Notes under the pieces: model-generated | What the model was told of the DNA's origin: nothing | What the model saw: only the letters and a program-made list of their open reading frames with translations | The model's database searches: none | Shown here: one piece after another, positions 39,451-51,153 of the stretch | Numbering within the stretch: the stretch's first letter is position 1 | How the letters are laid out: each line of letters starts with the position of its first letter | NCBI GenBank assembly: GCA_001873625.1 | Contig: MNZN01000010.1 | Span: 1-55,356 of the forward strand | Reading direction: 5' to 3' | Length of the DNA stretch: 55,356 bases | Origin: Candidatus Saccharibacteria bacterium CG2_30_41_52 | GTDB lineage: Bacteria > Patescibacteriota > Saccharimonadia > Saccharimonadales > Saccharimonadaceae | Translations under genes and position numbers: made by a program

Positions 39451-39477
39451 TTTGCAGGATTTAATCCTGCAACAGAT
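39451..39477 (+). repeat. REP-like palindrome, copy 1
   Basis: A 27-base unit containing the palindrome GCAGGATTTAATCCTGC (39454-39470) followed by AACAGAT, 25 bases beyond the stop end of the transposase gene. An identical unit lies on the other side at 40157-40183. Confidence 0.85.
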
Positions 39478-39501: not shown

Positions 39502-40116
39502 TTAGCTATTTGCTAAATAAAATTTTATCTCTCTAAGAGAGCATCTATAGCCCTCGTAATCGGATAAGAAAACCATATATTCATTAACGGATAAAAACAT
39601 ATCTAGTATCCTATGTGGCGCTATCCAATCCGAAGATAAAACGTTCACAAAATAAGGTAGGCTTGAATAATCATACGTGCGCCATTTTTTTGGATTCAGA
39701 TGAACGTATCTAGATATATGAAGCACGTAGCCTTCCGTAGTTATAATCGAAGCTTTGTATGTAGACTCAAATATTGTTCCAGTCAATTTATATTTATCAT
39801 TAAAATATCTACCATAACTTATCGTGACGTTATGCATAAGTTTAGACATTGTTCCTAAATCTACTTGATAGAATATCAAATGGAAATGATTAGGCATGAT
39901 ACAGTAACAATTTAATTCAATCGATCCTCTTAAGCTAACATATGCCCTGCCACTATAATCTTTTTGTTCACTATCACAAAGATATCGTTTAAAAAGGTTT
40001 AGAAATACTCGATAATCCTCATCGTCACGAAATATATCCATTTTTCCATGACCACGCGCATAAACGTGATAAAAAGAATTCACAGCGTCATTCCTAACTA
40101 TATTTCTGCTTGGCAT
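39502..40116 (-). CDS. REP-associated tyrosine transposase (RAYT, Y1/IS200-like)
   Basis: 204 residues. MPSRNIVRNDAVNSFYHVYARG is the standard RAYT opening. The HUH metal motif is intact in CYCIMPNHFHLIFYQ (His-Phe-His), and the tyrosine helix is in MHNVTISYGRYFNDKY, followed by GTIFESTYKASII and YVHLNPKK. These single-copy enzymes nick and move REP palindromes rather than themselves. Identical 27-base REP units flank the gene in the same orientation, making a complete REP-RAYT locus. A TATAAT lies six bases before the ATG. Confidence 0.93.
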   Translation of the reverse strand: MPSRNIVRNDAVNSFYHVYARGHGKMDIFRDDEDYRVFLNLFKRYLCDSEQKDYSGRAYVSLRGSIELNCYCIMPNHFHLIFYQVDLGTMSKLMHNVTISYGRYFNDKYKLTGTIFESTYKASIITTEGYVLHISRYVHLNPKKWRTYDYSSLPYFVNVLSSDWIAPHRILDMFLSVNEYMVFLSDYEGYRCSLREIKFYLANS

Positions 40117-40145: not shown

Positions 40146-40183
40146 GCAGGATTTGTTTTGCAGGATTTAATCCTGCAACAGAT
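40146..40183 (+). repeat. REP-like palindrome, copy 2, with a preceding half copy
   Basis: A full unit at 40157-40183 is identical over 27 bases to the copy at 39451-39477. It is preceded by a half unit GCAGGATTT (40146-40154), a possible trace of tandem duplication or partial excision. Confidence 0.85.
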
Positions 40184-47287: not shown

Positions 47288-47442
47288 GGATAGAAAGGGA
47301 TTTGGTCACTGATATTTTCTTTCAGAAAATTCATCGACCCCGCCTCAGTCGGTGACGTTCGTCATCCGACTTCCGGCCTTGCGAACCGCCGACGTGGCGG
47401 TTCTCACCACCGAACAAGGGTTCAAATCCCTTTCGTCTCATC
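47288..47442 (+). other. tRNA-associated unit 1, facing tRNA-Ser(CGA)
   Basis: The left end is a 17-base near copy (16 of 17) of the antisense tRNA-Ser(CGA) 3' region: 47288-47304 compared with 47483-47499. The right end is a sense copy: CAAGGGTTCAAATCCCTTTC (47415-47434) is identical to the tRNA T-arm but inverted, and ends TCTCATCA where the tRNA has TCTCCGCCA. Between them sits the 105-base core repeat. GAGATG upstream (47249-47254) could pair with CGTCTC near the 3' end. No ORF is present. Confidence 0.65.
47304..47408 (+). repeat. 105-base structured repeat, copy A1
   Basis: Nearly the same as 47858-47963. The last 73-74 bases from GACCCCGCC onward differ at only three positions; the first 30 are looser. 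It forms three hairpins: ATTTTCT/AGAAAAT, AGTCGG-TGAC/GTCA-t-CCGACT with a GTTC loop, and GAACCGCC/GGCGGTTC. Confidence 0.85.
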
Positions 47443-47479
47443 AAATTAAAAATTGACCATAGAGGTCAATTTTTAATTT
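47443..47479. terminator. Shared bidirectional terminator, unit 1 and tRNA-Ser(CGA)
   Basis: A perfect 16-bp stem (AAATTAAAAATTGACC with its complement) with a five-base loop, A-rich on one side and T-rich on the other. It should stop the tRNA on the minus strand and unit 1 on the plus strand. Confidence 0.85.
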
Positions 47480-47568
47480 GGCGGAGAGAAAGGGATTTGA
47501 ACCCTTGAAGACATTGCTGCCTTACCGCTTTTCGAGAGCGGCCAGTTCAACCACTCCTGCATCTCTCC
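47479..47568 (-). tRNA. tRNA-Ser(CGA)
   Basis: Long-variable-arm tRNA on the minus strand. Anticodon stem CCGCT/AGCGG closes loop CTCGAAA (CGA, reads UCG); T-arm AAGGG-TTCAAAT-CCCTT; discriminator G and encoded CCA (47479-47481). Confidence 0.95.
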
Positions 47569-47658
47569 ACTTGTGTTCTATTTTAACAGATATACAAACA
47601 CAAAGTAATTCGATGGTGTATAAGTTTAAGTATAATCATCTAACTATGGAGTAAGGTT

Positions 47659-47779
47659 ATGGAAGACAAGCAACAAAAAAACTGAAGTTACCGGACAACA
47701 AAATGGACTGACTATCGCTGCAATGGTCGTCGGTATAGTGTCACTAACCCTTGGATGGGTGCCTTTCGGTGGGCTGTAA
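47659..47779 (+). pseudogene. Remnant of a DUF4190-like membrane protein gene
   Basis: ATG with GGAG and AAGG upstream starts MEDKQQKN and stops. One frame over, from a run of seven A, the sequence reads TEVTGQQNGLTIAAMVVGIV and then SLTLGWVPFGGL before TAA. That is the first helix of a DUF4190-type small membrane protein whose second half is absent. So there is both a homopolymer frameshift and a 3' truncation, the latter within a few bases of tRNA-associated unit 2. Confidence 0.7.
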
Positions 47780-47786
47780 GTAAGGC

Positions 47787-48023
47787 ACTCGGCAAGATAT
47801 CGGCTTTTGGCCTCCTCCGCTCATTCACGAAAAAATGTAAACACTTATGCAAGGTTCGGTCACAGATAATTTTCTTTCAGAAAATTTCGTGACCCCGCCT
47901 CAGTCGGTGACGTTCGTCATCAGGCTTCCGGCCTTGCGAACCGCCGACGTGGCGGTTCTCACCTGCGACTTAACGCCAGTAAACTGGCGAGTCGCAGATT
48001 CGAATCTTATGCGAAGCATACCA
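47787..48023 (+). other. tRNA-associated unit 2, facing tRNA-Arg(GCG)
   Basis: The left end ACTCGGCAAGAT (47787-47798) is an exact direct copy of the antisense tRNA-Arg 3' end (48066-48077). Near the right end GTCGCAGATTCGAATCTT (47992-48009) matches the sense tRNA T-arm at 17 of 18 positions and runs to ATACCA just before the terminator. The core repeat A2 lies inside, then a hairpin GCGACTtaaCGCCAGT with its complement. TATGC (47847-47851) could pair with GCATA before the terminal CCA. Confidence 0.65.
47858..47963 (+). repeat. 105-base structured repeat, copy A2
   Basis: Second copy of the repeat at 47304-47408, same orientation. In this copy the middle hairpin has CAGGCT in place of CCGACT, which weakens but does not remove the stem. 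Confidence 0.85.
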
Positions 48024-48062
48024 AAATAAAAACCCCACTAAAAAGTGGGGTTTTTATTTTGG
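48021..48062. terminator. Shared bidirectional terminator, unit 2 and tRNA-Arg(GCG)
   Basis: A perfect 18-bp stem that begins with CCA and ends with TGG: the CCA tail of unit 2 and the CCA end of tRNA-Arg are the two feet of the same inverted repeat, with loop TAAAAA. Confidence 0.88.
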
Positions 48063-48136
48063 TGAACTCGGCAAGATTCGAACCTGCGACCTTTAGCTCC
48101 GCAAGCTAACGCTCTATCCAGCTGAGCTACGAGTCC
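48060..48136 (-). tRNA. tRNA-Arg(GCG)
   Basis: 77-base tRNA on the minus strand. Acceptor GGACTCG pairs with CGAGTTC, discriminator A, CCA encoded; D-arm with A20; anticodon stem TTAGC/GCTAA and loop TTGCGGA, so the anticodon is GCG. Bacteria usually read CGN with an ACG tRNA modified to inosine. Confidence 0.94.
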
Positions 48137-48141
48137 AAAAT

Positions 48142-48212
48142 GTAGGGTCACGCATATATTCAAGATACCGCGTCATTCGACACGGCCATATCGGATGATA
48201 TGGTGACACTAC
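48142..48212. other. 71-base extended hairpin directly upstream of tRNA-Arg(GCG)
   Basis: Outer arms GTAGgGTCACgCATAT and ATATGGTGACaCTAC pair with one mismatch and one bulge. Inside, an arm of CCGCGTC/GACACGG (one G-T pair) with GATA/TATC flanks closes an ATTC loop. It occupies -6 to -76 relative to the tRNA, where the promoter should be. It may be a palindromic element or an RNA gene of its own. Confidence 0.6.
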
Positions 48213-48310
48213 TTTTCATGTAACTAGAAGGTGCTTTCATTCGCAAAATTTTTGCGGTGAATATTGGCTATTGTAACACGATGTGACATCTGGCGGTAGA
48301 GGTAATCGTC

Positions 48311-48907
48311 TTAAAGACGTAGTTTGCGTATAATAATGTCAATTAAATCGAGTTTCAACATTTCCATCGGTAATCTGGCACCTAAAATATCGACAATTTC
48401 TTCACCGACTTCTTCGGGAAAATAAACCGACACACCCGGCGCAAATCGCTTTATTGGAATTAACATAATTGAATTATGCTGATCGTCTTTGATTAAACTA
48501 AATGATTTGAATTCACTAAAATGGTACAAATTTTCACCAACATACAACCCCTGATCGCCACTTAACGTATATTTGATTACTCGAGGTGGGCGACGTGAAT
48601 AAATTACTACCGCGACTGCCATTACAATAACCAAAACAGAAAAGGTGTACGATTTTAGGAATAAGATATCGACAGCAATAAACGCCAGGGCGACAATCGC
48701 GAACAAAATAAACCACAAACCATTTTTTTCTTCATGAATATATTCGCTGGCAGTCCAATGAACTGGTGCGTTTTCGATCTCTGGTTTAGTGCTGGTTGAA
48801 TCGTCAACATCCACCGAATCATCAACAGGTTCAGGTGTATACATTTCAGATATCTCATCTGTATCTGCTTCATTTTTCCAATAGTTATTTTGTTGTTCAG
48901 GTTGCAT
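48311..48907 (-). CDS. Two-helix membrane protein of unknown function
   Basis: 198 residues: an acidic disordered N-terminus (about 1-55), a double-hairpin of membrane helices (about 65-105, LWFILFAIVALAFIAVDILFL and FSVLVIVMAVAVVIYS), RRPPRVIKYTLS and a C-terminal beta/alpha cytoplasmic domain with SLIKDDQHNSIMLIPIKRF. The layout resembles PH-like (bPH_2) membrane proteins. It has its own leaderless promoter. I do not assign a function. Confidence 0.75.
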   Translation of the reverse strand: MQPEQQNNYWKNEADTDEISEMYTPEPVDDSVDVDDSTSTKPEIENAPVHWTASEYIHEEKNGLWFILFAIVALAFIAVDILFLKSYTFSVLVIVMAVAVVIYSRRPPRVIKYTLSGDQGLYVGENLYHFSEFKSFSLIKDDQHNSIMLIPIKRFAPGVSVYFPEEVGEEIVDILGARLPMEMLKLDLIDIIIRKLRL

Positions 48908-48913
48908 AGAATT

Positions 48914-48919
48914 AGTATA
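48914..48919 (-). promoter_or_regulatory. -10 element of the 48311 gene
   Basis: TATACT with TGt upstream (extended -10), six bases before the ATG. Confidence 0.65.
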
Positions 48920-48950
48920 ACATGAGCAGATTGGTGACAGAAAGTTATGG

Positions 48951-49157
48951 GGAGGATGGGAGATATCGTTCCACTCCGCGATATAGCAGATCTAACTTCC
49001 CGAGCCAAAGATTCGGCGAAGCGAAGCACAGAAAAGAAAGCGCCGAAGGCATTTTCTTTTCAAGCGAACGGAGAAGCGGAACGAAGTGAAGCGATACTCC
49101 CGCATTTTCCATCTTGATGGAAAATCAGCGCGGAGTTTGAATTTCCCCACCACCGGT
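48951..49157 (+). other. tRNA-associated unit 3, facing tRNA-Ser(GCT)
   Basis: The left end GGAGGATGGGAGAT (48951-48964) repeats the antisense tRNA-Ser(GCT) 3' end (49200-49213) at 13 of 14 positions. The right part has GGAGTTTGAATTTCCCC (49132-49148), an inverted copy of the T-arm with two changes. Inside are a palindrome around ATATCG...CGATAT and a second-class motif (49075-49099) shared with unit 4, followed by an ATTTTCCATC/GATGGAAAAT hairpin. There is no ORF; repeated GCGAAGC/GCGGAAC strings give an odd, G+C-rich composition. Confidence 0.6.
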
Positions 49158-49196
49158 AAATAAAATACCCGACCTTTCGGTCGGGTAATTTATTTT
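49158..49196. terminator. Shared bidirectional terminator, unit 3 and tRNA-Ser(GCT)
   Basis: Stem with core ACCCGACC/GGTCGGGT and TTTC loop, extended by A-rich and T-rich arms; it would stop transcription from both sides. Confidence 0.85.
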
Positions 49197-49288
49197 GGCG
49201 GAGGAGGGGAGATTCGAACTCCCGCTCCAGGTTTCCCCAGACTAATGATTTAGCAAACCATCCCCTTGAGCCACTTGGGTACCCCTCC
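49196..49288 (-). tRNA. tRNA-Ser(GCT)
   Basis: Minus strand. Anticodon stem ATGGT/ATCAT with loop TTGCTAA (GCT, reads AGC/AGU); long variable arm; T-arm GGGAG-TTCGAAT-CTCCC; discriminator G; CCA encoded. Confidence 0.95.
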
Positions 49289-50932: not shown

Positions 50933-50946
50933 CTAATAAGCAGAGG

Positions 50947-51026
50947 AGCGGAACGGAGTGGATCGATACTCGCGGGCATCAGCTTGTTGATGCGTCCGCC
51001 GAGTTCAAATCTAGGCACATCCGATC
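50947..51026 (+). other. tRNA-associated unit 4, facing tRNA-Ser(TGA)
   Basis: Starts with AGCGGAACGGAGTGGATCG and continues to ATACTC (50947-50971), a 22-of-25 match to unit 3 (49075-49099). Then come the hairpin GCATCA/TGATGC inside CGG/CCG and the sense T-arm CGAGTTCAAATCT (51000-51012), identical over 13 bases to tRNA-Ser(TGA) but inverted. It ends ACATCCGATCA at the terminator. No left-end direct repeat was found. Confidence 0.6.
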
Positions 51027-51063: not shown

Positions 51064-51153
51064 TGGCGGAGAGGGCGAGATTTGAACTCGCGGTACCATT
51101 ACTGGCACGGCAGTTTTCAAGACTGCTACCATCAACCACTCGGTCACCTCTCC
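51064..51153 (-). tRNA. tRNA-Ser(TGA)
   Basis: Minus strand. Anticodon stem GCAGT/ACTGC, loop CTTGAAA (TGA, reads UCA and wobbling codons); long variable arm; T-loop TTCAAAT; discriminator G; CCA encoded. Together with GGA, CGA and GCT this completes the serine set in one window. Confidence 0.95.

Follow-up and report, generated by a model that had tools for sequence, protein, structure and literature searches.

A structured, gene-less element beside tRNA genes of Patescibacteria, probably a family of non-autonomous insertions with locally copied tRNA flanks

The 55,356-nt contig MNZN01000010.1 of Candidatus Saccharibacteria bacterium CG2_30_41_52 (assembly GCA_001873625.1) was analysed at its full length; it is called the window here, or G000:C3 in our numbering, in which G-numbers are genomes and L-numbers are loci. 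ARAGORN identifies five tRNA genes in it, four of which are clustered on the minus strand at 47.5-51.2 kb. For three of these, a second copy of the tRNA 3' end lies at some distance past the gene, and the question that the locus raises is how it came to be there. A sequence-only reading had taken these repeats as the mark of non-autonomous cassettes integrated by a tyrosine recombinase. Our analysis retains from this the gene-less, non-autonomous insertion in the T-loop that leaves a displaced tRNA 3' end, but not the tyrosine recombinase mechanism. We consider it probable that the units are non-autonomous, hairpin-based insertion elements of a new family, which target tRNA genes, copy local tRNA sequence and are moved by an enzyme acting in trans. 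The element is not in Rfam and stands beside tRNA genes across many Patescibacteria groups.

Each of the three repeat pairs was re-read exactly as proposed: GGATAGAAAGGGATTTG/GGAGAGAAAGGGATTTG at 47288-47304 and 47483-47499 (unit 1, 16/17), ACTCGGCAAGAT at 47787-47798 and 48066-48077 (unit 2, 12/12) and GGAGGATGGGAGAT/GGAGGAGGGGAGAT at 48951-48964 and 49200-49213 (unit 3, 13/14). The bounded segments are also gene-less as described, with no open reading frame (ORF) in the units. These direct repeats are the outer edge of a larger structure and only one of three tRNA-derived pieces per unit, the other two being derived from the T-arm, inverted and beside the terminator, and from the T-stem 5' strand, in direct orientation. 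Between the pieces lies either module A or, in unit 3, a second family, module 2, which occupies the same place in the T-loop. In unit 2, the repeat at 47787-47798 is an older displaced tRNA end beyond the remnant of a second module, and the repeat abutting module A is found at about 47848-47858. The features of these units, and of a fourth in the window, are as follows.

47479-47568, minus: intact tRNA-Ser(CGA), host of unit 1 (ARAGORN).
47443-47478, minus: palindromic terminator of unit 1, directly past CCA (from sequence).
47416-47442, minus: inverted T-arm/acceptor copy of unit 1, with 16/18 of the antisense core as expected (sequence, flank scoring).
47305-47406, minus: module A copy 1, three hairpins in 102 nt, TGAG...GTGAC (alignment, covariance model).
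47288-47304, minus: displaced tRNA-Ser 3' end abutting the module, in the first repeat pair (sequence).
48060-48136, minus: intact tRNA-Arg(GCG), host of unit 2 (ARAGORN).
48023-48059, minus: palindromic terminator of unit 2 (sequence).
47989-48008, minus: inverted tRNA-Arg T-arm copy, 17/18 (flank scoring).
47859-47961, minus: module A copy 2, 103 nt (covariance model, flank scoring).
47848-47858, minus: copy of the tRNA-Arg T-loop/T-stem 3' side directly next to module A, matching the tRNA at 9/12 (flank scoring).
47798-47845, minus: module 2 remnant within the displaced tRNA-Arg end (read by eye against relatives).
47787-47798, minus: older displaced tRNA-Arg 3' end, in the second repeat pair (sequence).
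49196-49288, minus: intact tRNA-Ser(GCT), host of unit 3 (ARAGORN).
49159-49195, minus: palindromic terminator of unit 3 (sequence).
49130-49156, minus: inverted tRNA-Ser(GCT) T-arm copy (sequence).
48965-49095, plus: module 2, about 130 nt, in the orientation opposite to most relatives (read against relatives).
48951-48964, minus: displaced tRNA-Ser(GCT) 3' end, in the third repeat pair (sequence).
51064-51153, minus: tRNA-Ser(TGA), host of the fourth unit (ARAGORN).
51000-51018, minus: inverted tRNA-Ser(TGA) T-arm copy of unit 4 (sequence).
50933-50974, plus: truncated module 2 of unit 4 (read by eye).

In the sense of the tRNA, a unit starts with the intact gene (X-T54T55-C56-Y-CCA) and a palindromic terminator directly past CCA. 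Next come an inverted T-arm copy (Y'X') and a short loop or small hairpin, then the T-stem 5' strand once more in direct orientation (X), the module and, last, a direct copy of the T-loop/T-stem 3' part and acceptor (Y), sometimes with CCA and a terminator; this last Y is the piece noticed at first. Module A in such downstream units begins TGAG after G53, usually closes GTGAC before C56 and stands in place of T54-T55. When 47 rows were counted by hand, the module ended exactly in TGAC before C56 in 35, and several others were off by one base. Scoring of the flanks of 47 module-A units from G000 and its relatives showed that they match their own tRNA better than other tRNA types: 10.5/12 versus 6.6/12 for Y (the 12 nt past the module, so that the repeats are above chance as a class), 12.9/18 versus 10.2/18 for the antisense piece and 7.8/12 versus 5.2/12 for X. 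The simplest geometry, X-TT|C-Y-CCA-hairpin-Y'-AA-core|C-Y-CCA, is found in distant Patescibacteria (L193, L194, L199 and L203), and it implies that the segment running from C56 through Y, the hairpin, Y' and AA to the end of the core would be an insertion at T55|C56. The units are read as insertions of the core into tRNA genes, with T55|C56 of the T-loop as the commonest site, and next to the core stands an inverted copy of the tRNA sequence that surrounds the insertion point.

Other units are mirror versions that lie upstream of the gene: a promoter and the tRNA 5' part are followed by the module, then by a short hairpin with the antisense of the uninterrupted target, and then by a promoter and the intact tRNA. 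The direct repeats of promoter and 5' half are perfect over 69 and 70 nt at L104 and L108. The flanks are shown to be copies of the same tRNA, namely 3' half and terminator downstream or promoter and 5' half upstream, and an intact tRNA stands beside the core in nearly every case read. Modules also occupy anticodon, variable or D-arm sites (anticodon or variable regions at L106 and L107), opposite orientations are seen for module 2 and, rarely, for module A, and L201 holds two units in tandem with 125 nt identical. At L106:1501-1838, a broken tRNA-Gln copy upstream of the intact tRNA-Gln has one module in its anticodon loop and another in its T-loop.

Module A is about 102 nt long and forms three hairpins; the conserved part of the element is a multi-hairpin core of roughly 65-105 nt. 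A conserved tetranucleotide at the hairpin foot is characteristic of REPIN elements; in module A, GTGA stands before hairpin 1, which is variable or absent in distant members. Covariation was compared with slid and shuffled alignments (500 shuffles each). In the genus alignment (30 sequences), 17 of 34 pairs are changed on both sides with 96.9% of cells paired, as against at most 4 pairs in the slid controls. Double changes occur in 33/34 pairs of the order alignment (31 sequences) and 27/34 pairs of the phylum alignment; both alignments were fitted to the structure of the model, which biases them toward pairing, but their double changes are greatly above all slid and shuffled controls. No shuffle reached the observed covariation at the genus, order or phylum level (0/500 each). 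The fold of module A is therefore supported by covariation across the phylum. A strand-polar G-U pair is kept in 24/24 distant members.

The association with tRNA genes is nearly exclusive. DNA similarity located 19 copies of module A in G000, a Saccharibacteria-type genome of 825 kb that is 96% complete, and all 19 lie 33-240 nt from a tRNA. The 10 copies in G059, which belongs to another family and whose complete genome is one contig of 909,550 bases, all lie at 18-249 nt, while the sequence within 350 nt of a tRNA makes up only roughly 3-4% of either genome. G000 has 39 tRNA genes, of which we read about 25 as having a unit or a clear remnant of module A or module 2. Close relatives with module A are Candidatus Saccharibacteria or Saccharimonas by name. 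Of 295 genomes of the order, 67 gave module A hits with a covariance model; a second model, run on 380 genomes sampled from the phylum, detected it in 40, about 30 of these outside the order. A module A-like element lies directly downstream of the tmRNA gene in another Patescibacteria lineage (L207:1501-2014).

Module 2, a second module that is presumably also structured, follows the pattern TTCGGCG..hairpin..GARCGGAGGAG..hairpin..GCGATAT and was seen in both orientations at 48965-49095 and at L140, L141, L173 and L187. A regular expression for module 2 matched 4 copies, which are pattern matches and no measure of its abundance. Rfam searches of the window at the gathering score, and of selected loci at permissive E-values, gave only tRNA above the gathering score, and no description of the element was found in the open-access literature. 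Group I and II introns and twister-sister did not fit the core in topology or size when it was inspected by eye. Bridge RNA (IS110), H/ACA-type guides and TnpB omega-RNA were considered as well, and no identity with any of these is claimed.

Do these units move? In 28 genomes of the genus, what stands at the orthologous genes for Ser-CGA, Arg-GCG and Ser-GCT ranges from module A or module 2 to remnants or nothing at all, so that occupancy of the sites is shown to vary between species. A failure to find any empty-site allele, with the arrangement fixed across distant relatives, had been named beforehand as an argument against mobility; arrangements were found to differ, and the empty-site alleles looked for do exist. 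The Arg-GCG gene of G023 (L157) is without a unit, while in G010 (L155) a module-2 unit separates the tRNA from a displaced 3' end; past the displaced end lies the same old terminator (94% over 67 bp), and synteny extends 1.5 kb upstream. The Ser-CGA genes of G019 and G311 show the same pattern, with a displaced terminator 98% identical over 60 bp. Because the new terminator differs from the displaced one in G010 and G019, a ready-made cassette seems to have arrived in each of these events. At L050 and L055, units have accreted serially and have distinct terminators. Downstream of tRNA-Ser(CGA) at L133 (G007), a unit has shrunk to a short scar in comparison with G020 (L131), apparently through a deletion at GCGGAACG microhomology.

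Module sequences cluster by genome (0.37 versus 0.18 shuffled, 0/500), and clustering by host tRNA is not clear (0.087 versus 0.041, p 0.12). Taken with the flanks that match their own tRNA, this is suggestive of movement of the module from one tRNA type to another, with a gain of local tRNA sequence on arrival; the tRNA parts of the units appear to be copied locally. The tRNA-derived flanks mostly decay independently of each other, as is expected of footprints, while the core is constrained.

Integration by a tyrosine recombinase, either of a helper element or the housekeeping Xer, would bring in T-loop cassettes with a replacement tRNA 3' end and terminator, as islands do. The T-loop junctions, serial accretion and the empty site favour this, as does the restored tRNA with a displaced fragment, which is known from the tRNA/tmRNA-integrated genomic islands with tyrosine integrase (Islander; PMC4383910). 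The units resemble these islands in the split tRNA, the intact tRNA with its displaced 3' fragment as a direct repeat, the empty site in relatives and the use of tmRNA (L207). They differ in being about 200-280 bp long without genes or integrase, in the inverted tRNA copy, in 5'-side duplications with promoter, and in sharing one core across about 20 tRNA types per genome. Four observations make this explanation improbable. First, the proposed search for tyrosine recombinases did find one PF00589 protein in G000, but it is a Xer and not a dedicated integrase; with no ORF in the units either, the integrase by which tRNA islands are recognized is missing. Second, 18 of 22 genomes compared, both module-rich and module-free, have exactly one tyrosine recombinase, some with 13 detected modules (G000 and G096) and some with none, and copy number is unrelated to recombinase number. 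Third, the inverted tRNA copy, the duplication of promoter and 5' half and the two module orientations are not predicted by ordinary attP x attB integration, nor are the anticodon and D-arm sites. Fourth, modules cluster by genome and not by tRNA. The larger element with the same ends that had been suggested was found neither in IMG/VR (two module-A patterns and one module-2 pattern) nor among INPHARED phages or in PLSDB; the sole matches in these phage, plasmid and virus collections were 28 nt long, at chance level, in Sinorhizobium plasmids. A genuine integrase island of a relative also looks different: the island of about 8.1 kb in tRNA-Pro of G003 (L236:842-9033) encodes a tyrosine integrase, a large serine recombinase, a ThaI-type restriction endonuclease and a C5-methylase, its repeat is the 10-bp acceptor end CCCCGACCAT, unlike that of module-A units, and it stands between tRNA-Pro and the module-A unit of that gene, which it has displaced. 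Support for a dedicated tyrosine integrase as the mobilizer is thus lacking, and a better fit is offered by a single-strand (HUH/Y1-type) enzyme or by template switching during replication.

Three RAYT-like (REP-associated Y1) transposases are encoded in G000, one of them in the window at 39502-40116 (minus strand) with the palindrome TGCAGGATTTAATCCTGCA on both sides (39453-39471 and 40159-40177). The flanking palindromes are of GCAGGATT, CCAGGGTC and GCGAGGAT type, one per gene, and none is module A. RAYT was rejected as the mobilizer on account of these different palindromes of its own, although action in trans is possible. A reverse-transcriptase-driven retroelement was likewise rejected, as no RVT_1 was found in the 96% complete G000.

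The core might instead be a host-selected regulatory or processing RNA that is attached to tRNA genes and controls the tRNA by folding together with the antisense T-arm. Its very strong covariation, the strand-polar G-U pair, the near-exclusive tRNA association and the tRNA-matched antisense segments would suit such a role. However, orthologous loci of sister species differ in what they carry, some near-complete genomes have no detected copies, and units stand in either orientation on either side of the gene. The antisense acceptor part has decayed to 2.4/7, which argues against antisense regulation of the tRNA, and antisense and sense copies mostly diverge independently. We therefore regard a host RNA as unlikely. 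Ordinary tandem duplication of a tRNA, with unrelated repeats then inserted in the decaying spare copy, would account for upstream-type units in which a promoter and a second tRNA, largely complete as far as the module, are preserved (L105, L109 and L112), but is very unlikely given that downstream units hold only the T-arm region with an inverted copy, that the junctions are constant and that the same core is at the same place phylum-wide.

For an insertion element, we propose that local tRNA sequence is copied at each new insertion when strands switch at the terminator palindrome, or through an equivalent fold-back at a single-stranded target, which would leave the host a working tRNA. The fold-back and the direct copy with terminator or promoter would allow a lethal target to be used without harm. 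The core hairpins, as RNA or single-stranded DNA, could be what the mobilizing enzyme recognizes in trans, and established cassettes may also cross species by recombination at tRNA repeats. Several points weigh against this proposal. No mobilizing enzyme has been identified, and no excised or circular form was seen. In G010 and G019, the unlike terminators fit an imported cassette and not local copying there. A precise deletion across the paired tRNA repeats could likewise leave an empty site, the clustering by genome could stem from gene conversion among the copies, and a core so conserved might serve the host. More tentatively, the elements may be RNA- or single-stranded-DNA-structured across the phylum, reside in tRNA and tmRNA loops, copy local tRNA at every insertion and depend on a new type of enzyme.

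Small hairpin elements are known elsewhere. REP/REPIN elements are moved by RAYT (TnpA-REP) transposases (PMC3116915, PMC8266576). Like these, module A would be small, non-autonomous hairpin DNA in a genome with RAYT-like genes, but it has no cognate RAYT with the same palindrome and is tRNA-bound, three-hairpin and conserved phylum-wide. For the repetitive hairpin-forming and double-hairpin elements of mitochondria there is evidence of invasion and mobility (PMC2800124). They too are gene-less hairpin elements. We know of none with such tRNA-loop specificity and a copied host-gene flank. In integron attC and CTX-phi attP, a single-strand fold makes the double-stranded site; this might serve as a model for the fold-back copy, with the difference that no integron integrase is involved here.

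tRNA genes are classic docking sites of mobile DNA, and the elements known to dock there carry, to our knowledge, an integrase and one matching att site. Patescibacteria are thought to be poor in mobile elements. Here, in a minimal genome, roughly one half to two thirds of the tRNA genes are occupied by a gene-less, highly structured element, each tRNA remaining intact. If confirmed, this element would represent a new class of element and a structured-RNA family in Patescibacteria, and may provide a marker of genome plasticity and a lead to a new recombination or copying enzyme.
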